Below, in pieces: positions 8,238 to 61,000 of a stretch of 64,000 nucleotides of DNA. The notes beneath the pieces are model-generated. The model searched no databases. It was given only the letters and a program-made list of their open reading frames with translations, and was not told where the DNA came from. Location of the stretch: assembly GCF_964340395.1 (NCBI RefSeq), contig NC_135553.1, positions 9,137,501 through 9,201,500 on the forward strand. The letters run 5' to 3'. This DNA comes from Glandiceps talaboti. Its lineage: Eukaryota > Hemichordata > Enteropneusta > Spengelidae. A program made the position numbers and the translations under genes. How positions within the stretch are numbered: position 1 is the first letter of the stretch; each line of letters begins with the position of its first letter.

Positions 8238-10133
8238 GCATAGCAAGGCATTCAATGACTACCCTGTACCTATGCAGCATGGCATATCACTTACTGAGTA
8301 CATTCTACATTTACCAATGAAGTTTTGCATGTCATTCAATGACTATACTCTGCATTGATCTATGCAGTATGGCAAGTCATTCAATGACTATACTCTACAT
8401 TGATCTATGCAGCATGGCATGTCATTCAATGACTATACTCTACATTTACCAATGAAGTTTTGCATGTCATTCAATGACTATACTCTGCATTGATCTATGC
8501 AGCATGGCATGTCATTCAATGACTATACTCTGCATTGATCTATGCAGCATGGCATGTCATTCAATGACTATACTCTGCATTGATCTATGCAGTATGGCAA
8601 GTCATTCAATGACTATACTCTACATTGATCTATGCAGCATGGCATGTCATTCAATGACTATACTCTGCATTGATCTATGCAGTATGGCAAGTCATTCAAT
8701 GACTATACTCTGCATTGATCTATGCAGTATGGCATGTCATTCAATGACTATACTCTACATTTACCAATGAAGTTTTGCATGTCATTCAATGACTATACTC
8801 TGCATTGATCTATGCAGCATGGCATGTCATTCAATGACTACTCTGCATTGATCTATACAGTATGGCATGTCATTCAATGAATACTATGCATTGATCTATG
8901 CAGTATGTCATTCAATGACTATACTCTGCATTGATCTATGCAGTATGGCATGTCATTCAATGAATACTATGCATTGATCTATACAGTATGGCATGTCATT
9001 CAATGACTACTCTGCATTGATCTATACAGTATGGCATGTCATTCAATGAATACTATGCATTGATCTATGCAGTATGTCATTCAATGACTATACTCTGCAT
9101 TGATCTATGCAGTATGGCATGTCATTCAATGAATACTATGCATTGATCTATGCAGCATGGCATGGCATTCAATGACTATACTCTGCATTGATCTATCCAG
9201 CATGGCATGTCATTCAATGACTACTCTGCATTGATCTATACAGTATGGCATGTCATTCAATGAATACTATGCATTGATCTATGCAGTATGTCATTCAATG
9301 ACTATACTCTGCATTGATCTATGCAGTATGGCATGTCATTCAATGAATACTATGCATTGATCTATACAGTATGGCATGTCATTCAATGACTACTCTGCAT
9401 TGATCTATACAGTATGGCATGTCATTCAATGAATACTATGCATTGATCTATGCAGTATGTCATTCAATGACTATACTCTGCATTGATCTATGCAGTATGG
9501 CATGTCATTCAATGAATACTATGCATTGATCTATGCAGCATGGCATGTCATTCAATGACTATACTCTGCATCTACCTATGCAGTATGGCATGTCATTCAA
9601 TGAATACTATGCATTGATCTATGCAGCATGGCATGTCATTCAATGAATACTATGCATTGATCTATGCAGCATGGCATGTCATTCAATGACTATACTCTGC
9701 ATCTACCTATGCAGCATGGCATGTCATTCAATGACTATACTCTGCATCTACCTATGCAGTATGGCATGTCATTCAATGAATACTATGCATTGATCTATGC
9801 AGTATGGCATGTCATTCAATGAATACTATGCATTGATCTATGCAGCATGGCATGTCATTCAATGACTATACTCTGCATTGATCTATGCAGTATGGCATGT
9901 CATTCAATGAATACTATGCATTGATCTATGCAGCATGGCATGTCATTCAATGACTATACTCTGCATTGACCTATGCAGCATGGCATGTCATTCAATGACT
10001 ATACTATGCATTGATCTATGCAGCATGGCATGTCATTCAATGACTACTCTGCATCTACCTATGCAGTATGTCATGTCATTCAGTGACTACTCTCTGCATT
10101 GACCTATGCAGCATGGCATGTCATTCAATGACT
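8238..10133. repeat. 1.9-kb satellite, 43-45-bp monomers with higher-order repeats
   Basis: About 43 copies of a unit built from GTCATTCAATGACTATACTC, TGCATTGATCTATGCAG and TATGGCAT. The 45-bp form is a multiple of three, so an open frame runs through several copies. Variants of 43 bp (AATACTATG in place of ACTATACTCTG) and of about 38-40 bp alternate. A block starting GACTACTCTGCATTG recurs at 8836, 9005, 9219 and 9388 (spacings 169, 214, 169), showing higher-order structure. It ends about 130 bp beyond the KCTD5 stop codon. Confidence 0.92.
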
Positions 10134-10260
10134 ACATACATCATTAATCAATCTGCATTGACAGGCAAAGTCCTGAATTTCACCTGAAGGCTGACAGCCT
10201 CTCAGCCATCAGAATTTCTTCCTATACACATTTAAAAAAAGCTACATTACTATAAAGATG

Positions 10261-35733
<25,473 letters not shown>

Positions 35734-46434: not shown

Positions 46435-46440
46435 TTTATT
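46435..46440 (-). terminator. TMF1: AATAAA overlapping the TMF1 stop codon
   Basis: The last codons AGT AAA TAA A contain AATAAA. If used, the 3' UTR would be very short. The next minus-strand AATAAA I noticed is about 2.5 kb further on, near 43905. Use of this site is inferred only. Confidence 0.35.
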
Positions 46441-46462
46441 TACTTTTCAGTAATTCTTCAAT
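46436..46462 (-). CDS. TMF1: TMF1 terminal micro-exon (8 codons and stop)
   Basis: 27 bp: acceptor ATTGTCAG|ATTG, then IEELLKSK and TAA. Human TMF1 ends QIDELLRQSLS, so the position and the IxELL motif agree. The stop codon overlaps an AATAAA hexamer. Confidence 0.85.
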   Translation of the reverse strand: MEELLKSK

Positions 46463-48949
46463 CTGACAATAGGAAAAAAAGTACAAAGAGTCAATTCAAC
46501 CAGTTTATATCCAGTATCCAACTATAGTTGTGACCAATTTGTAAGAAGCCATTTCTGATAAAGAATTCTGGTATTCAAATGGGAAACAATGTACTTAAAC
46601 ATCTCACAAAACATTTTTTGTTATGAATAGCAAGGAAACCATGTTTTCAAAGAATAACACCGTACCTGTACAGGTTGATGATGTTTACAAATAATTCAAA
46701 GTAGTTCCGACCATATTACTATAGTGTGACGTCAAAGTATAGTAATATGAAATGCATGGATTTCATATTACTATACTTTGACGTCACACCCTGGGAATAT
46801 GAATGAGGGTCTATGTACATAAATAATAATACATTTTAGCTCACTCTGAACATAAATAAAAAGGTTTGTGTTTGCATCATCCTTATTTCATCCAGTCCTG
46901 TTGATTTATGTTCACAGTGAGATAACATGTATCATTTCATATGCATGCATGCTATCAGTGTCTGTATTTTGATTTATATAATTTGTAACGAAAAACCTTG
47001 AGTGTGACGTAAAAAAATATCGTGCTTAATCACTTTAGTTTGGTAGTAAGAAACAGATTTCTTTTGACAGAATACTTTACCTGTTGTCTGTACATTTCTT
47101 TCACATCCTGTAAATCTAATTTCAATTCTTCAGCTTCTTCTGCTTTTTCACCATACATCTGAAGCACTGCATTATGTTTGTGTTCCAGAGCCTGCCAAGC
47201 AATAGTGAAATCAGTGTTCAAATAAACGTATAACATCTTGGCATTTTGGGTCTCTAGTATTCTGGCAACACTGCCAATTTTGTGGGGCTTTAATACTGTA
47301 ATTCCAACAGATTACTGTATGATCATTATCATTGAGCTTGGTTTTATTTTGTGATTAATGGATTAAAGGCCCATAATTCAATCCCAGGTTCTTACATTAC
47401 TTCTGTCTTTATCAGTGGCAACATAAGGACACATCAGATCAACATTTTGATCAGCACAAACTTCTGTAGCTCTCCAAGACAACTGTTTTCTACAACTAAA
47501 TTTTAATCCTACTCACACCTAAGCCTTTTGAAATTCATAGAACTATGTAGATTACCACTGATAAACTTTTATTGTCATATTTATCATTTATTTTCGCAAA
47601 TACTCAATATGTAGCACAATTCAAGAAATACACCATTCTATGATATTGCGAGATCAACTCACAGCACCCACTAGCTGGAAACTACAACACATGTGCTGCT
47701 AATGAAATGACTTTCTGTTGAAATGATCCATGCTTGAAATGATCCACATGTAGACCTATAGAATCTACACTGTGAAGGGAATGACGCCTACATTTTGATC
47801 ATTAGTACATCAAGACATTATAACTGTAAACTCCTAGTCTGGCAAACTCTTCTCCAACTATCGCAGGAGAGAGACATGTAACTTTCATTATACCCTCCAT
47901 AAAGGAAGCCATTTTTTTTTTTTTTATATTTATAAGATTTTTATTGGTAACTTCAGTTGTTTACAATATAAGTTGCTCTTGTTTTACATAATAAGATGGT
48001 GTATTGTTATCCATTTGTTACAGTGCCTTTCAAGTTTGTCTTTGTTAACAGCTATAATATACTCACAGTGATAATTGTATTTCACATGGTTCAAGTATAG
48101 TGCAAAGTGCGGTTTCAAGTTTTTCATCTTCATAGAGTAAATGTGTCTCTTGGCCAACAGAAGCAAGTGGTTATACAGATTTGTGAAAGTTATGTTTCCA
48201 ATATCTCACTGAGGGAGGGCAGGTCGAATAGAGTAAAGAAATTCTTGAAACAATTTAAAAAATCTTGCCAAAACTTTTGAGTTTCATTACATGAGTGGAA
48301 TAAGTGCCTTAAAGTTTCATCATCTCTTTCACAAAAAATGCAAGCTGGAGAGAAACCATTCTTATATTACAAATTCTACAGCATTGATCTGTATCTGTAA
48401 TTGCCACTCTACCTGTAGTCTTCTTTGCATTTCTGGTATTTGTTCCACTTTATCTTCAAGTATTTCATTTCTATTGGACAAATTAACTAGCTCCTCTGCC
48501 ATGGCAGTTCTTGTTCTTTCAAGTTGAGTAATCTCCACCTAAAATTAAAAATAGGTTTATTTATGAGTCTGGTCTAACGGTATTTTCATACATATTCGTA
48601 ATTCTGTATCAAATCACACACATTATGCTGAGCAATACTGACCTATGAAAGATTATAATGAATCATTTTCATACAGTCTTCCGTGATTGGCTCAGATTGT
48701 GTCACATGGTATGGACAAGTGACCCATAGTGACCTCAATTTACATACAGAGGGTACTATTCTTTTTATAGTTTCCCTAGGGCACTATTAATGTAGCACAG
48801 GAGTACAACCATTGATTTACTTTGACTATGGGAAGACTATGAGCCTGAGAATGTAATGTGTTGAAAGATATCATTTCTGATTAGCAACAATCTACTATCT
48901 CCAACAGGTAAATTTGATTTATAACATTCTTATCTCTTTCAGCAATTGC

Positions 48950-49042
<93 letters not shown>

Positions 49043-52000
49043 CAAAAATATTCAGGGGTCATGTTATTGTATTGGCAGTAGTATGTGCTGTATCAAGTGC
49101 CTTTTTTGTAATAATTTTATTGCATACAGCCACACCCCCTTTCTTATTTTAGTTTCATTTCAGTTTTAATGACCAGACCAATTCTACTGTATATCTGTTG
49201 TATTTTGCTTCAGTGACCCTGGAATGCCAATCTATCTTATGACATGCTTTTTGTTCCAGCTATCTTGTTCAAACCCTGGAATTTCAATTCGAACTGTGAC
49301 ATGTTTTGTGCAACTTTGGTCTGAGCAAGTGTAATTAGAACTTTCCCCAGTTATCTCAGACTCAAGACGGTATCATTTATAGTAACAGTACTGACAAGTT
49401 CTATGATGGAGTACATTACTCACCTGTAGCTGTACTATTTCACCATCTCTCTGCTTCACTTGTGACTGTAGACTTTCTATAATGGCAGTAGCAGATCCTG
49501 ACATGACGTTTTCATACATACTACCTGTCATGCTGGCTGACATACTCTGTTCTAGAATCTCACCCTATGATAAAAACACAACATAATTGAGAGGTGAAAA
49601 CACCTGAAAAATCCCAAAAACTAGAACAATTAAAATATGTGTCTGCAATATTTCAGTTACCAGGCATTGGTGATTTGGAACAATCTCAATATTACTGGGT
49701 GTTTGTGGGTAATAAAATCTACCTGAGTCAATGGTAGTAATATTACTGGGTGTTTGTGGGTAATTACACCTACCTGAGTCAATGGTGGTAATATTACTGG
49801 GTGTTTGTGGGTAATTAAACCCTACCTGAGTCAATGGTGGTAATATTACTGGGTGTTTGTGGGTAATTACACCTACCTGAGTCAATGGTAGTAATATTAC
49901 TGGGTGTTTGTGGGTAATTACACCTACCTGAGTCAATGGTGGTAATATTACTGGGTGTTTGTGGGTAATTAAACCCTACCTGAGTCAATGGTAGTAATAT
50001 TACTGGGTGTTTGTGGGTAATTACACCTACCTGAGTCAATGGTGGTAATATTGGAGTAGAGGTCAGAGGTTCACTTGTAAAACTGGCTGATCTTGATAAT
50101 GTAGGGGTTTCAGGTTGGCTGTTAACTTTCAAGTGAACACTCGTACTCAGTTCCTCCATCTTCTTCTCCTGTGAAAGAAAACCAATTATGACTGTGGTAA
50201 AACCATAAAATATACAGGGTTTTGTCAGTAACAGTGTGTAGTGCAGGTTCATATCAAGTCCTTGATACATCAAATTCAGCATTTTATTTTTAAAAATCCT
50301 ACTTAAAAGCAACGTAGCAGTAGCAAAAACTCTTGGTCAAAGTGAACTGATTCCTACATTGGAAATTATAATAATTATGTGTACAGCTTAGTTCCATTGT
50401 TGCCATTAGTCAAGTATTCAGCAACCCATCACCTTAAACCATTAGATTTTTGTAAGGCTAAGAAATGCATTGTTTGTGAACGTGTAGGAGAAGTACTGTA
50501 TTATCTCTTCCTTTCATGAATTGTACAAGAAACATTTTCGATAAGTTGCAAATGTGGGTTGACAGTGTACACAAGCACTCAGTGACTAGTTAAAGGCAAA
50601 GATTCAGTAATCTCAGACAGGTACAAGTCCAACAGTCAAGATTAGTTTTTACTGTACATGTGTCACTTTGTGAACAACAAGGAAAAATACCAAGATATCT
50701 CTTACTTTGCTGAATTGTACAAGAAACATCTTTGAAGAGTTGAAAAATGGTAGTTGAAAGAAGATAGAGAGGTTGCAGGGTTCCAAGTTAGTATTTGGCG
50801 ACAAAGATTCAGCAATCTCAGACACACAACAGTCTCCCTGGTAAAGATTAGCTGCCAATATCACGTCTCAGTTCTTGACAATTTCAAGTCAGTTTGATGA
50901 GTGACTGTACTCATCAGGTAAACATGTGCATGACTAATTTTGTACACATTTTCACACCCCTCAAATACAACAAAGATTATTCAAATTACACATGTTTTAC
51001 TAATTTGACAAAATATTTCCTGCTACATTATGTACAAATGCTGTTTGGCTACTCAATGTATGTTTGGTTTGTTATTGGTAAATGCACAGGTGTTGCTGAA
51101 CTAATATGCTAAGTTCATTACTTTCAGTGTGCTAATATGTAAATTAGCTTCTTGCTAGTAGAACTACAGGTGTCATTCTACTATGGTATGCAGATTTCCT
51201 GAAATGGATCAATGTTAAGTGGCTTCTCTTTACAAACACCAGATGTGAAGCAAATTATAGCTCTGCATTATTTCACATTATCAGCACACATGTGGCTAAT
51301 TTAATTTCTCCACATATTGTTAATATGTAAATTTTTCTTTCTTATTTTCAGAGATCAGCTAATTGTGATAAAGCAGAAGTTATTTTGTCTAATTATGCAT
51401 ATAAATCAATCAGACAATCAATCAATCAATCAATCAATCAATACCTGTTTACCTTATCTTTCAGAGCTTCTTGTGCTAGTAATAATTTCTTCTTTTCTGT
51501 ATCAACTTTCAGTCTTTCCATTTCGACTTGTTTTTCCAGCAACGCCTTGTCTCTCTCTAGATCCTCTATGGCCTTGGAGTAGGTATGTCTGACTGTGTCT
51601 AACTGTACAGCTTCTCTGGATAACACATACAAAAAAACAAAAACATGAAACGTTAACAAATGTGACAGTTTGAGATAGTCATATCCACACACACATTTCA
51701 TCATATATACTCTATATGTAACTATCATTTACATATCGGAAGCTGCACAACACCATGTCCTCACTACTTACATAAAGTCACTTTTGTCTAGGCTTAACAG
51801 ACATGAAGAAACGTCCCGAGCTCTGCTAATGAAAGGACGAACTGACAACATATCAGAACCCTAATCGTCATCTACATATTTCAGGACACTGTGTATAATA
51901 CCATGATCATGCTACAGTAACTTCACTTACATGAACGGAGATCTGTCTGTGATTGCAGCGAAATAGGAAAACATTTTGCGCGCCTTTTTTCATGAAATGA

Positions 52001-55000
52001 TTACTGTTGATAAATCCTGCGTTATACAAGTGTATCGGAAAACAAACTGAAGATACATTGATCAACGGCACGTTTTAACACGCATTTACTAAAAAGTCAT
52101 AAATATCTATTTTGCATATTCCATTATACAACCGTGTCAGACATGTCATGAAACATGCTTTCCTTTGTTAGAATAAATCTGGTATTTCAAAATAAACAGA
52201 ATGAAATACAACAATAGAATAAGTTGCAAATGTAGTCCACATTATTGGTAGTGGTATAACACGCATTTCAACACTATTGTTCTTGTCTTTATTACACCAT
52301 ACCGCACGAGATCATTCTATTGATAAAAATCATTTCATTTGGATCATACATGTACAGCAAAATTGAAGGGATATTGCACTCAAGGGAGCACTTAATACAA
52401 CAAACACATAATCTGTCAGTGTTACAATCAGATATAATCCCAATTTTCTTCATTCAGCTAAGGTAAATATGAGTGACCTAAGGAGCCTGTTACTATGTGT
52501 CAATAGACAAGTACTGGGTAGTGACAAAACCCTTAGGTCATGAGTATTTTCTGGCTGAAAGAAGAAAAATACTGGGGAATAAATCAAATAATTTCAAATA
52601 CTTTGATTCATATTTTGAGCACCACAGAACCAATGATGTAGACACACGTTGTTGTGACATAGAATGACTAGCCCATATTTTGTGTTCAAACATGTTCAAC
52701 CTGGCTTGTTTGTGGTATAATATTGCTCATCAGTAATTTTCCTCTGCTCTTTATGTAACACAGTAATCAATAAATATAACTCTATGAATTTATGAAGGCC
52801 ATACATTATACATCGGAAATTGCATAAAATCAATTTGCATATAAGTCATGTCAGACACAACCAAAAACCATAAGAAACCCACAACATCCAGAGTACATGT
52901 ACACTCCAAAATAATATTACCCATAGTAGCAGTGTTCTCCCTTGGTATTCTTCTGACTGTGTGGTTGATTTACATAAATATTTGCATATCATTATCATAT
53001 ATGTCTACACACTTATACCCTGTGCAGACTAAACAGTCTGAGTTTTCAATATTATGCTGACCAAAATTTTGTAACAGTCAACAAATGAATGTTCAAATTC
53101 TTATTACCTAAAATGGAATTTTACCACTTGAACAACAATTCGATTCTTTGTTCAACACCATGACTTCCCCTCAACTTGCTACACACATGTATTACTATCC
53201 ACACATGTGAATATGTCAACCTTGCTCTATTTTGACCCTTAAGTATGATGTAAAGTTCTATTACAGGTACAACAAGAATTATACAAATATACTATAAAAA
53301 GAGGCGAACTGACTACTCTTGCTTTATCCAGACTTTATGTGAAAATCTTCAACTACTGTTTTACATTCCCTTTGTCATACTTCAAAAGTATGTAGTAACA
53401 AGTCTTCTACTTTGTCGGAGACATAGCCCCCACCTCCAATAATAAATATGTTACTAGTAACAAAGCGATATCTTACCTGTTTTTATATTCCTCCAAAGAT
53501 TCAATCTTTGTTCTTTCCATCTCCAACATCGCTGACAGTTTGACTTTCTCTTGTCTTAGTAACGTCACCTGTGATTCAAGGGCAGCTAATCTAGAGTTCA
53601 TTTCAAGTGAATTCTCTGTCACCATCCGTTCCTTCTCTAGGGCTGATGCTAGTTGAGTTTGTGCTTCATTCAATCTCTCTGTCAGACTTCTTTCAATTCT
53701 CTCCCAGGAATTAGATTGTGTTGTAAATGTAGACTGTAGGTTCTCTATTTGTCTCAACAAAGGTCTGGTAGCTACAAATTGTCAAAAGTCGAAGAAAAAA
53801 AATAAAATTTTACAATTATCGTTTCAGTAATCAAAGAGAAGTGACAAACTCTCCTCTATTTTGACATGTTGGGAATTACTCCCAACTATTTTTTTTATAC
53901 ATAGTACACAAACACAGACACAATTCTACACACTTCCATTCAGGTTTGGGACTGCATGACAGGGCGATGTTGCATACTTGCTTTCATGTCACTGTAGAAC
54001 TGTCAAGGTTTCTGAGTCAGTCCATAGTCCATCCCAGAGTCACCCACGCCTAGCAATGCATAGCACCTGTAAGTTCCATGTTAGGAATAGTCATGACACA
54101 AGTAATTTTTCCAGGAGTGCCCCAATTTGCACTCGTCTTGTCTTTTCTCATATGAACATTTTGCAAGAACTATTGGATATACGATCTAAAATCATTATGT
54201 AACTATTACTTTATTAATACAAAAATCAAATCTCATAAACACTTGGTAATCATTGCCTGTACTTACCAGCAGTCACACTTTGACTAAGTTCTTGGTTCCT
54301 GTATTCAGCTTCCTGTAATCTTTGTTGTAAATCTCCTATCTCTAGTCTTAGATTGTCTTCTTTCCTGGCATATATCTGTTCTGCTCTACTCAGACTCATT
54401 CTAAGGTCATTCACCTGAATGTGAGGAAGGTATACAATTTAAGATTGTGATGATATATATTAACATTACAATCAAAATCATGAAATTTGGATCTTAACAA
54501 CAGTGCTACATTTGATTGTTAAGCCCAACAAAAATCTGTCTGATGAGAGGAGGGTAAATACCATTCTGATCCAACTCAGCAAACATACACACACATCAGA
54601 TATCCATCAGATATCCAACAATTTTTTTCTGTAAAAATCACACTTTAGATAAGGTACTATTCTTTTGTGTATACTAATATTGCCAATGTGCAATATAAGT
54701 TTTACAAAATATCGTTGACGTTTCTATCTATGTCCTTATACATTAGCTGAATTATTGCACACTGACAAAAAACTAATTACTGAAAGTCTAAAATCTACGC
54801 CACAATTTTATGAACCACTCACTTGAACTGCTAAACTGTCCTGTTCATGTCTTGCCTCTTGTTGAGCCCGTTCCAATGCAAATCGGATTTCTTCCTTGGC
54901 ATTCATCTCAGCACTAAGCTGTGCTTCTTGTATTTTACTCTCTTTACTGGCTATGGTTCTATGAAGTTCAGCTATCTCCCTGTTAAATAACAAAATGAAA

Positions 55001-58000
55001 CATCAACATTGACATAATATATTCACACACAGTGTTTTCATGGAACTTTTTCACACAAGGTCTGCAGAGACACCTTCTGTAGTTGGTGATTACTAGGGAC
55101 TCAGCGACAACATCTTGGTCTGAGAATGATTTACATGATATCAAGATGCTGATGATCAGAAATTTTAACATAGTTTGACCACCAGGTCACTTTGTCTATA
55201 TCCTTTTCTTTATCAGGTCAGTAAACCATTGTAATAAACAAGACTGATCTAATATTTCAATGGATATCCTCTAGTCCACATATAAAACTGTGACATCATT
55301 ACTTGCACAACGAAATCTTGCATTCAGTTCAATTTATGATGATCTAAATTTCTTAGCAATTAAAGGCAAATAATTGTGATAACAAAATATTTTTAAAAAG
55401 GCAAACACTAAGTACATTGTACCTTCATTCAGTTGAGCAACGCAATAGAATACATCAGCATTGCATCTCCCCTACCCCATCCCATCCAACCCCTCCCCCA
55501 TCCCCACCCCCAACCAGTACCATACTTTGTACTTACTTGTAGGATGCATCTAATGCAGACTGCGTACTTCTCACTTTATCCTTTGCATCTTCCAACTCAC
55601 TGTTCAGTGTATTGATTTGTTTCTCTTGTAACTCTACAGCTACACTTAATTTAGAAATACCGTCTGAAAGACAAGGATAAATGAAAACAACATGTGACAT
55701 CTATGCCAAGTTGTAGGTGGAATGTCAATATTTGATGCATCTTGGAGTTATGAAAGAGCTGTAGATATAAAATATTCTCATACGTTAGACACTGAGTAAC
55801 TACTTATAAATCGATTCTTAATTTTAATGCTTAGTGCTGAGGTCAGGGGTCAGACATGATTAGCATAGCTATTTTCTAACTCCTGTTATCCGTTCTGATT
55901 GTTTTGCTTCTTATGTATTTACGTTTGTCATGTCTTCTTTTTTTTGATCGGGTAATAAAAGATATTGTATCATATCATATTTAATGAGGTATTATGAACT
56001 ACCACTAGACTGAAAGATCTGTTGGTGATCTGTTGTTGTGTACACTTCATTAATCACTTCATACAGTATTTAGCTAGTGGGAACATAGCTTGACAAACTA
56101 AAGGCATTTTCATAATTATGGGTTCTACGGAGTAATTTCATGATTTCACATCACACAAATTTCACTTTATTGGAGTCAGCAGACATTAGATGAAGAGCAC
56201 AGGAGCACCATCAGCATTTAATCATTCAGTCTAGAAATATCTGTATCTCAATAATCAAATCCTTCAAAGACAAAATCAAAGAAACACACATCAACATATT
56301 CTTACCTTTCTGTTTCTTATCAATGCCCTCCTTTCCATCAAGGACCTCCTTCAAGTGTGTTACTTCAGCTTCTAGGCTATCTAGTTGCTTTCTGAACAAG
56401 AACAATAAGAGAATGGAAGAAATTTAAAGTTTCTCATCCTCTGAAAGTCGATTTTGTTCATTTAAAATGGATGGTTTTTCTCATTTCATTTTGTGGGTCA
56501 TTCCTGCCTAGCAGAGTACCATACAGTCCTACAAGTATAAACTGCTGTGTTTGTAGTGGCTGCACATAAGAAAGCGTGAGTGCAATTCTCACAACTTCTT
56601 GAGACTCTGTGAGATTTTCTTATACTACTTTCATGTACTATTTGAGAACATATAAGATTGTCACACCCAATCTAGAATTCTGCTTACTGTATACATAATT
56701 GGATATTTCTGCAAATGCCCAGGGCACTGACATTGCCTAAATGTTCACTTTGCCTACTTACAAATCGATAACATTTTCACATGAAATTCATGCGATTGCA
56801 TTATGTTTTGTACTCTGATATTGAGATGACCAATGAAATTTGACATGATTTCATTCTCATACTTGATATACTAGTATAAGACTACTACACTTACTTCTGA
56901 TATTTGTTGAGATTTTCAGTGAACCCATACTTGATATATTTGAAGACTACTACACTTACTTCTGAGACTTGATGAGATTTTCACTCTCTTTCTCTTTCAC
57001 TCTGAGTTTCTTGATGATATTGGAATTCTGTAATTGTTGTTTGGATAACTTCTCACCCTCCTCCATCAAGCCTTCAATCTGTTCATCTTTCTCTTCCAGT
57101 AACCTAGCAACCCTGTCTTCATTGGATCTAAATGACAAAGTAGCACAAGTTGTTTAAAATGATAAGCTATACATTCTGTGCACTTCAAAAGAATTTCTAC
57201 TTGTTTTTTACCAATTTAACTAAGAATCCATGCAATGTGTAATGTGGAAGATTTAAGTTGTGAGAACCACATCAAATTTATCATCAGAAAGATCATAATA
57301 ACAATGGACATCCCTGCTGTGTGAGACATCTACTTAGCACAGCAAAATACAGCACACAGTATATATCTAGTACAAAACAATACAACACAGCACAGCACAG
57401 CACAGTTCAGTAAAGTAAAGCAAATTTCAGTAAACTTAAGCACAGCGAAGCACAGCACAGCACAGCACAGCACAGTGCATTGCAGTAGTGCAGTTCAGTG
57501 CAGCACAATACAGTACACTACAGCACAGTACATCAGTGACGTACAGTACATCACATTACAGCACAGCAGAATACGAAAACAAATGTCAACATCAGCTGTA
57601 AAAATTGCAAATCTTTCTCAAAATTCAAATTAACAACAGTTATTTATACATACTTGTCTTGTAGCTGTTGATATGTGATCTGAATTTCTTTCTTCAACAT
57701 GTCTCTTTCCTAACAAGAAAGGATAGCAAGCAACAGTTTAATTGAACGAATGGTGAGATGTGCTTCAAAATCTACAAAAACCATCTTCTGTTTAGAAACA
57801 CATGTTACATGTTACAATATTAAAATACATGTACAGAACAGGAATAATGGGGTAGAATGCTACTAGTATTACAACAATTAACAATACACACATATAATAA
57901 TAATGTCGGTTTTTATATAGCGCTTTTGAAATTTCCCACTCTGTGTTCAAAGCACTTTACAATTATTACCCCTGGCTTGGATCTATAGTGGCACAACGGC

Positions 58001-61000
58001 CCTTTATACTTCCTCAACTCCCTGGGGAGAATACAATTCATTGCAGTATTTATAAGTGCATAGGATTAAAGCATTGACATTGCAACCTCTATCGTACCTG
58101 GTACCCAAATATACAGCTGGGTGGACTGAGGCACGATCGTGGTTCAAATTTTGCCCTGGGACTTTAGCCACTAAGAAACAAATGGCGGCAATGGGGTTCA
58201 AACCTGCAACCTGCAGATTCCAAGCCGACCACTCTAACCATTCACCCATCATGACTTCATATAAGAATGATGCCAATGTCAATGATCATTAGTATGCAAT
58301 CTCATTTCTAAACATCTCATAATATATTTGCATTACTGTTGTTTTAAAGTATAGGTGCATTGTGTTTTTTATTACAAGCAATATTCACCCTTGGTCCCTA
58401 AAGTCTACTGTGAGTATTTGGTGATAGAGTACTTAGTGATAAAATAATACCTTAGTCACAGACTGAAACTTCTTTTCCATAGATGATAAACGCTGCGTAA
58501 ACTCTTCAGTTACAATGTTTAAATCTTCCAACTCACTCTCCCTGGCTTCTTCAGATTGTTTAAGTTGACTGTAAAACAGAAAATAAAACATTTTTGAAAC
58601 CACAACATTTAATGCACCTGGTTCTAGGAATTGCAAGTCAAGAAAGTCAGCTGATTTCTATGCAGTGAAAAAATGAACCCCCTTTAAATATCTGAAAAAG
58701 ACTAAGAACACTTTCCAGAAACATACAGTTTAATACGGTTTCTTTGCTTTTATTAACTAATACTTCCGGTACCTGCACTCAGTGCTACTATCTCACCTTC
58801 TAAGTATACTACTGGATTCCTGTAGGTCCATATTTTCTTTACTGAGAGTCAGAACTTGGTTTTCCCTTGCTTGAAGAACCTCAGCCATTTCAGCCAATTT
58901 CTGAAATTAGTGTGAATAATAATGATACGAAAACACATTAAGTAATGGATATTGATATGAACAGGTCAAATTGAATGTACACAGGATGGTACAAGTTACA
59001 ATTGGGTATTACAATTGTGTAATATACATGCTCGTTCATTTCAGAATAAGAGGAATGACTTTGGGATCTACCATATTGGGGTAGGGTAAAATATAAAATA
59101 CAAGCAAGTTCCTTTTCTGCAAATACATTTAACGGTGGGGAGAGATTTACAATACAATAATGTTGATTTTTATATATAGAGATCACAGTGTTTTATTAGT
59201 ACTCCTAGTATGAACCTAGAATAGCACAAAGGCCCTTTATATTTCAACTCCCCAGGAAGTATAAATCCTTTGTAGTGTCTGTAAGTGCATACGATGAAAT
59301 CATTCACATAGCAACCTCTATCATACCAGGTCCCTAATTATACAGCTAGGTTGACTGGGGCACAATAGTGGTTCGAATCTTGCCCAAGGACAAATGGCAA
59401 CAGTGATGCTCGAACCTGCAACCTACAGATTCCAAGCTGACCACTCTAACCACCAGACCATCAGAATTCCACTTTATACTTCAATTTATGTACATGAAAG
59501 GATGTATTTCCGTGTGATGCAAAAATGCTTACTAATTTTTTTACATTTCAGAAACATACTTTTTACCTATCAAACTAGCCTATTTACCAACAAATTTAGT
59601 TTTTTTTTGCCTCTATAGGAATTTGGCCTTCAGTTATTATTCACAAAACATAAGGAAAATATGAGGCAAATATTTGTACCCATTATCCCATTGTTAAGAT
59701 GATACCCTATATAAACACACACTCTTACAATAACAATATTAGAATTATAAACTAAATATACACAAAACTGATAAATGTACATTGCATTATGTACATGTAT
59801 ACCTCAGAACTTTTGAACAAAAACCACTCCTCATAATAACCCATAAATAATACATAGGACCCAACAGTAATAATAGCAACGATTTTTTCTTCTTCATTTT
59901 TTCTATGTGTTCATATGAATATATGGAAATCAATGTAAACATGTATTCATATAATATTCTATTTAAATATGGCTGGTAATATACCTTACTGTATAAATAC
60001 ATTTTTTCAAAATTCCCAAATTTCCAAAAAAAATGATTATTATAGTTGTACATAATTCCATATTTTTTTATTTTTAACCTTAGAATACAGTAAACGACAT
60101 TGAAACATTTCTCTGACACCACTCAAAGTATTCATACATTTTATTTCCTACATTTATATGCACTGGTGATCTTGTTAATCTTGTACCAGCTGTAGACAAT
60201 CAGCCCATCAATAGCTACCAATTCTAGTTATCAAAACCTGCCCCAACGTATAGCTGTTTATTCGTATGACGTTCTGCAGACTTATTCACTATAGTTTCCA
60301 ATGTATGTAATGTATTTGCATAATCTGATGGTCTGAGACTTTCCTTTTGATATTTAACTATGTGGAATAGACTAGAGCAAACCTAGCTATTATATATGAA
60401 TTTAATATCATTTACCAATACCAGCTGTAACATTTGAACATACAGAAAACCCTGTGCCAATGTGGCACACCTTGGTGTATTTGCATAAAGTGCTTGGGGT
60501 GTTATCGGTGGCTGTAATGTCATAAGTGAAGTGAGTGAATGAAAGTGTAGCAGAAAACACTGCAAGTATGAAGGGTGAAAATACTCCACACGTTCACACT
60601 GGCACGTTTACATCTTGGAGTTTTATTATTTTTACATATGTTTATCCAAAGCAGTAAATCTTATGAAAATATAACTGATGGTCATGTGATTAATGTATAT
60701 GGAACAATCACGTACTCATTTGCATACTTGTGAAGAATGCAATGTTTTCAGTATTAAAACTACCGTGTACATATCAATAACATGTGAACTGATGCAAGTA
60801 ATCACTGGTACATATGTTATAGTAAACATTCTGATTTTAATATGCTATCAAAAATATGGCATCATGTACTATACAAAAAATTTCTTTACTTTTTTAATTA
60901 TTATTTAGTAATACCATATTGCTAAAACTGCGGCTGCTTAGCCACAACGATTTGTTAATGTTATGGTACTGTTTGTAATTATTCAAATGTCTAATAATTT

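Follow-up and report, generated by a model that had tools for sequence, protein, structure and literature searches.

A tandem array of seven 5′ splice sites at the end of TMF1 exon 10 in Glandiceps talaboti, with mirage-like arrays at other coding-exon ends of the same genome

The border between exon 10 and intron 10 of the TMF1 gene in Glandiceps talaboti has been copied in tandem, leaving seven near-identical 5′ splice sites in a row, and we consider it probable that this array is a slippage-made mirage in which the first donor is used and the other copies are mostly passive intron. As mirages are already known from amphioxus, the single TMF1 array is ordinary within its class, and the parts worth following are the recurrence of such arrays in one genome and the evidence from protein sequence for use of the first donor in three genes. 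The analysis has covered a window of 64,000 nucleotides, i.e., the whole stretch of DNA under study (G000:C6:9137501-9201500), and the genome searched comprises 590 Mb in 47 contigs. The features around the array are as follows, in positions of the window:

46436..58900, minus strand: TMF1 gene model with 14 exons placed, 5′ part incomplete
50031..50168, minus strand: TMF1 exon 10, in phase 0 at start and end, with 22 terminal nt that form the exonic part of the first copy
49688..50052, minus strand: tandem array of 7.1 copies of 51/52 bp (TRF)
49565..50030, minus strand: TMF1 intron 10, which donor 1 makes 466 nt long
49565..49566, minus strand: AG of the exon 11 acceptor, the exon starting at base 49564
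49424..49564, minus strand: TMF1 exon 11

Exons 3-14 of the model encode a protein of 561 residues that matches both Pfam TMF domains (TMF_TATA_bd, 1.1e-29; TMF_DNA_bd, 7.5e-21), which upholds the identity given to the gene by an earlier, sequence-only reading. Exons 3-14 join in phase throughout, exons 1-2 have no in-frame join to exon 3, and this mismatch marks the 5′ part as incomplete, with at least one exon probably missing between them. The array at the exon 10 end lies between TMF_TATA_bd and TMF_DNA_bd, directly ahead of the C-terminal domain, at a position whose counterpart in human TMF1 we take to be a serine-rich, variable linker. The smallest intron placed in the model measures 228 nt. 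A search of the own genome with the 93-residue exon 10-11 peptide has returned two matches at E<=10, both at the TMF1 locus, and hence no paralog or retrocopy; the C-terminal part has found weak coiled-coil matches only in the PDB, and the Rfam search gave no match. Other repeats stand in the same window: a tetranucleotide repeat ATTG/TGAT (51404-51442) begins ∼10 bases past the exon 9 donor, which itself offers two GT choices (AAG/GTAAACAG/GTATTG, slashes marking the possible borders), a perfect TTGA repeat of 23 units (48951-49042) occupies the intron after exon 11, a large 45-bp satellite of ∼43 copies has a higher-order period of 383 bp (8270-10134), and 24-bp repeats of the ACTAGAAAG type (12916-13346) carry long open frames on both strands.

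Each array unit consists of the last 22-23 nt of exon 10 and the first 28-29 nt of intron 10. TRF has reported periods of 51 (score 656) and 154 (score 695), and as 20 first-order random windows scored no higher than 70, chance is excluded. The array sequence has one match in its own genome and is thus locus-specific, which has ruled out that the unit came from a mobile element or from a dispersed satellite. The seven CTCAG/GTAG donors on the minus strand, noticed already in the sequence-only reading, have been borne out, as has their distance of 51 or 52 bp; a strict alternation of the two lengths has not, since the spacings run 51, 52, 51, 51, 52, 51, the second and fifth units being those of 52 bp. 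Pairs of units differ at 0 to 5 positions, and the last 22 nt of exon 10 recur without change in units 3, 5 and 6. The block of units 2-4 differs from that of units 5-7 at only 4 of 154 positions, which suggests a three-unit duplication. The sequence AATATT is found at both edges of the unit, ∼51 bp apart, one at the exon end and one in the intron.

Minisatellite-like tandem copies of exon-intron boundaries have been described as mirages in amphioxus Adh3 and the globins BflGb6 and BflGb9 (PMC3087553), together with a TnC mirage and similar repeats in lancelet PGBD5 (PMC3902484). The unit is reported to range from 10 to 160 bp, and many units carry a splice signal (PMC3087553, PMC3902484). The arrays are described as varying in length, even somatically, and RT-PCR has suggested undisturbed splicing (PMC3087553). 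The TMF1 array is alike in its tandem boundary copies, its splice signal and its unit size: the units cross a real exon-intron boundary with the splice signal included, and a locus-specific unit of 51/52 bp is within the minisatellite range. It differs in its host and in the number of donors, with seven in a row here and, elsewhere in the genome, arrays with dozens; furthermore, amphioxus mirages are reported at 3′ boundaries as well, whereas our survey has addressed donor-side arrays. Judged from listings and titles, the open-licence literature searched has yielded no mirage outside amphioxus, hemichordates included.

TMF1 carries a second array of this kind at exon 3:

56858..56983, minus strand: two-copy tandem duplication of 65 bp across the exon 3 donor (donor 56959, copy 56894)

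Its copies match at 86% (TRF). With two of the 27 placed exon boundaries inside arrays, and arrays making up ∼4% of the gene span, TMF1 alone gives no excess.

The splice sites available at the exon 10 array are these:

50029..50030, minus strand: donor 1, CAG/GTAGGT, last exon base 50031, the putative functional donor
49978..49979, minus strand: donor 2, CAG/GTAGGG, last exon base 49980, +51 nt, in frame and open
49926..49927, minus strand: donor 3, CAG/GTAGGT, last exon base 49928, +103 nt, TGA after the junction codon
49875..49876, minus strand: donor 4, CAG/GTAGGT, last exon base 49877, +154 nt, TGA after the junction codon
49824..49825, minus strand: donor 5, CAG/GTAGGG, last exon base 49826, +205 nt, TGA after the junction codon
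49772..49773, minus strand: donor 6, CAG/GTAGGT, last exon base 49774, +257 nt, stop within the array
49721..49722, minus strand: donor 7, CAG/GTAGAT, weaker, last exon base 49723, +308 nt, stop within the array
49604..49605, minus strand: second acceptor-like AG, TTTTTCAG, exon start 49603, 39 nt upstream of that at 49564

Joined to the acceptor of 49564, donor 1 gives the open TMF1 frame, and donor 2 adds 17 stop-free codons (VGVITHKHPVILLPLTQ), as had been stated before; the statement that the inserts of 103, 154, 205, 257 and 308 nt shift the frame is likewise correct, and all of them lead to premature stops, which fall 373-470 nt before the last junction. The former description of 49564 as the single acceptor is doubtful, since the AG at 49604/49605 has the same upstream pyrimidine share (65% for both). 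With an exon start at 49603, each of the seven donors runs into a stop, so that the frame is kept in two of the 14 donor-acceptor pairs of exons 10-11. The proposal that changes in array length would choose which isoforms are in frame fails, because the frame of a donor is set only by the units between it and donor 1; units gained or lost downstream of a donor leave its frame as it is, and array length alone is thus not frame-setting. Pairing with the U1 end amounts to −11.2 to −11.3 kcal/mol for donors 1-6 and to −8.0 kcal/mol for donor 7, and among the TMF1 donors only that of exon 11 (−11.7 kcal/mol) exceeds donors 1-6. Donors 1-6 are therefore about equally strong, and of the local features examined only position favours donor 1.

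Which copy is used can be approached from genes in the same genome whose proteins are conserved. In IARS1, PNPT1 and DDX28, which carry comparable arrays, the exon ending at donor 1 was joined to the next exon and aligned to PDB homologs, and the joints (QEMTAYRLYTVV in IARS1, QRGQTQVLCTVTFD in PNPT1 and the P-loop AAETGSGKT in DDX28) have been found gapless. Donors 2 and 3 of these three genes produce frameshifts and stops, and donor 4 of IARS1, three units on, returns to frame only after stops. In a galaxin-like gene only donor 1 opens into the next exon (donors 2-4 tried, donor 3 being in frame after stops), and the same has been seen in an extracellular-matrix-like gene (donors 2-3 tried). 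The DDX28 array has 26 donor-word matches in 1.5 kb alone and extends over ∼3 kb by coordinates, its middle being taken from the matches listed; its donor 1 is GTAAGC, and the later copies among the matches listed are mostly GTAAGT, which indicates that position outweighs strength at DDX28. Judging from the protein sequences, the working donors in IARS1, PNPT1 and DDX28 must include the first copy, at DDX28 even against a better consensus further on. Of the two outcomes foreseen in the sequence-only reading, a splicing switch that is polymorphic and a first donor held by strong selection, the second accords better with these gapless joints.

The most serious alternative, which we nevertheless rate as unlikely, is a working module of alternative splicing, in which donors 1 and 2 would give two TMF1 isoforms that differ by 17 linker residues, donors 3-7 would tune the dose via nonsense-mediated decay, and array alleles would shift the balance. 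The stops behind donors 3-7, all of them ahead of the last junction, speak for it, as does the next-donor insert of TMF1 exon 10, whose 51 open nt are unique among 15 exon-end arrays (a set that includes TMF1 exons 3 and 10 and the array L041, and in which the AQR insert measures 61 nt). A 51-bp open unit is, however, expected by chance now and then, and there is no bias to multiples of three: the next donor word preserves the frame in two of the 15 arrays, namely TMF1 exon 10 and a gene that we take to be PI31-like (L041), with a stop in the insert of the latter, where ∼5 would be expected by chance. These counts do not point to selection for in-frame units, and with one open insert in 15, downstream donors are generally not kept as coding isoforms. 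The repeat unit of human IFI6, which is also a minisatellite with units as splice donors (predicted ones in TMF1), measures 12 nt and, as far as known, preserves the frame in every copy, whereas in TMF1 only donor 2 is in frame. As a precedent for the module, and as a point against use of donor 1, two downstream repeat units of IFI6 (6-16) are reported to serve as donors, three mRNAs being formed (PMC4526556, citing a 1995 minisatellite paper). Against the module, amphioxus mirages are reported without disturbance of splicing (PMC3087553, PMC3902484).

Less probable still is an intermediate of intron gain, in which CTCAG/GTAG would act as acceptor and donor at once, so that splicing could remove single units or several together and regenerate the same donor, as a route to new introns. 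Such a model has been proposed for the amphioxus globins (PMC3087553), and the minisatellites reported at exon-intron boundaries of human duplicated genes, with 30-bp units in four copies on average, are described as either kept in exons or forming novel introns (PMC2812944); both cases concern recently duplicated paralogs, whereas no TMF1 paralog has been found here. Each CTCAG within the array has 65% pyrimidines upstream, inside the native range of 59-82%, but the tracts contain just 6-7 T per 17 nt where native tracts have 7-13, a one-unit intron of 51 nt would be far under the smallest intron placed in TMF1, and intron 10 is already present. An assembly artefact is the least credible reading of all, for although tandem arrays are a classic place of misassembly and concatemer errors may occur in this assembly (contig C40 carries COX1 three times at a period of 15.4 kb), the TMF1 copies differ from each other, the flanks are unique and the same class of array recurs at other loci.

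Contig C40 (L038, L039), with an exact COX1 period of 15,435 bp and 53% GC in a 4.3-kb piece, is probably a mitochondrial concatemer. Its ND2, COX1 and COX2 frames hold no AAA and no AGA/AGG in 1088 codons, and three of the four ATA codons in COX1 are at sites which are Ile/Val in other animals, the fourth being at an often-Met site. Such a codon pattern is that of enteropneust hemichordates and suggests a deuterostome host other than a cephalochordate, probably an acorn worm. A lancelet fluorescent protein has found no match in the genome, a result of little weight by itself.

The passive mirage remains our preferred account, and it would have arisen as follows. The two AATATT stretches may have served to duplicate the boundary segment, through replication slippage or through unequal exchange, and later rounds would have built seven copies, one of them probably copying the 154-bp block of three units. 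The extra boundary copies would end up inside intron 10, and splicing would use donor 1, the one nearest to exon 10's own acceptor, as the protein sequence requires in the three other genes; this presupposes that exon definition or a 5′-most choice prevails over equally strong downstream copies. Donors 2-7 would be mostly passive, and rare use of donors 3-7 would lead to mRNAs with premature stops. In classic tests of duplicated 5′ splice sites, the copy closest to the 3′ splice site is reported to have been preferred in some cases, which counts against use of donor 1, and with a linker as variable as that of human TMF1, conservation is still compatible with use of donor 2. A further point against the account comes from the TMF1-type donor word itself, CAGGTAGG, for which nine of the 11 arrays among the matches listed are not clearly at coding-exon ends.

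A genome-wide count of CAGGTRAG words in threes, at gaps of 12-42 bases, has given 2368 matches, and 825 with the word reversed; for the word taken singly the counts are 33,200 and, reversed, 21,324, where a Markov model expects about 22,000 to 28,000. The CAGGTRAG matches listed comprise nine distinct arrays, on C1 and C2, and the reversed-word matches listed also comprise nine, on C1 to C7 with three on C1-C2 (counted by eye). The CAGGTAAGT pattern at gaps of 42-72 (443 vs. 196) has added six further arrays among the matches listed, and the CAGGTAGG pattern at gaps of 30-60 (1672 vs. 199) eleven, from matches listed that stop before C6 and hence are without the TMF1 array itself. By our judgement, 14 of the 26 arrays inspected among these matches stand at coding-exon ends and extend mirage-like structure beyond TMF1. 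They comprise 12 of the 15 CAGGTRAG/CAGGTAAGT arrays among the matches listed (L020, L043, L044 and L047 by an exon-like open frame only, the L043 exon having no match in the PDB), with no clear coding-exon end at L004, L028 and L036. Among the 11 listed CAGGTAGG arrays, two are at coding-exon ends and a third is likely so (L070); of the rest, seven are not and the remaining array is masked.

Homology at E<1e-3 has been obtained for nine of the 14 exon-end arrays among the matches listed. PDB homology has been found for the array exons of IARS1 (L026, 1.4e-25), PNPT1 (L034, 3.7e-24), DDX28 (L037, 2.2e-14), AQR (L045, 1.9e-12) and, in the CAGGTAGG set, CPOX (7.3e-9). The galaxin-like gene (L035) shows a galaxin repeat (9.4e-9), the KNTC1 exon (L042) reaches 6.3e-9, a PRXL2-like gene (L046) 1.3e-4, below Pfam's cut-off, and an armadillo-like gene (L010) matches nothing but a designed protein, at 8.3e-4 (Pfam 0.059). 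The second CAGGTAGG array judged to be at a coding-exon end (L076) has an open frame only and no Pfam match, and the extra array L041, from the single-word CAGGTRAG matches listed, has an exon-like end and equally no Pfam match. AQR is itself a spliceosome factor. At L028 (G000:C1:31431955-31435060), 24 CAG/GTAAG donor words follow an exon for the TBK1 coiled coil (Pfam TBK1_CCD1, 6.4e-14), and the first of them shows no exon of its own. The CAGGTAGG arrays L069 (C1:3034301) and L074 (C1:31864861), separated by 29 Mb, have almost identical units, indicating that some donor-like arrays are dispersed.

A preference of arrays for real donors is not claimed firmly. Coding-exon ends, judged by the author and not blind, have been found for 12 of 15 arrays among the matches listed and for seven of 20 single CAGGTRAG sites (Fisher, 0.016; the seven being L052, L053, L056, L059, L060, L062 and L066), the controls being hand-picked from the first 100 matches listed, on the plus strand of the first 1.9 Mb of C1. 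In the matched subset, i.e., the nine of 15 arrays that have the 8-mer of the controls, the count is six of nine (p 0.23). Homology at E<1e-3 has been reached by eight of 15 arrays among the matches listed and by two of 20 controls (p 0.008; matched 5/9, p 0.016), a comparison which is uneven, as arrays were also searched against the PDB, partly as joined exons, and a peptide was submitted for only eight of the 20 control sites; a third control site reached E 0.0015. An automatic exon score has given 13/15 among the matches listed vs. 7/20 (p 0.005; matched 7/9, p 0.05), and this score is weak, having missed DDX28 and taken the wrong frame for galaxin. The CAGGTAGG set, with two clear cases in 11 among the matches listed, counts against a preference. 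Three of the 20 control CAGGTAAG sites (L048, L049, L050) belong to a single family of interspersed repeats.

One genome thus offers natural genes with two to dozens of near-identical donors, some of them in conserved enzymes. The choice of the 5′ splice site has otherwise been studied with engineered duplications, and as protein sequence tells which donor is required, RNA-seq could measure position against strength in this choice and also reveal whether the arrays make introns grow. As a tentative extension, for which we see clearly less than even chances, true 5′ splice sites may be places where minisatellites arise or persist more readily than elsewhere, in dozens of genes and under a strict rule of the 5′-most donor that would apply even where later donors are closer to the consensus, and the arrays may keep supplying longer or new introns. 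If this is true, mirages would reach beyond amphioxus into a further deuterostome phylum, where they would form a genome-wide class.
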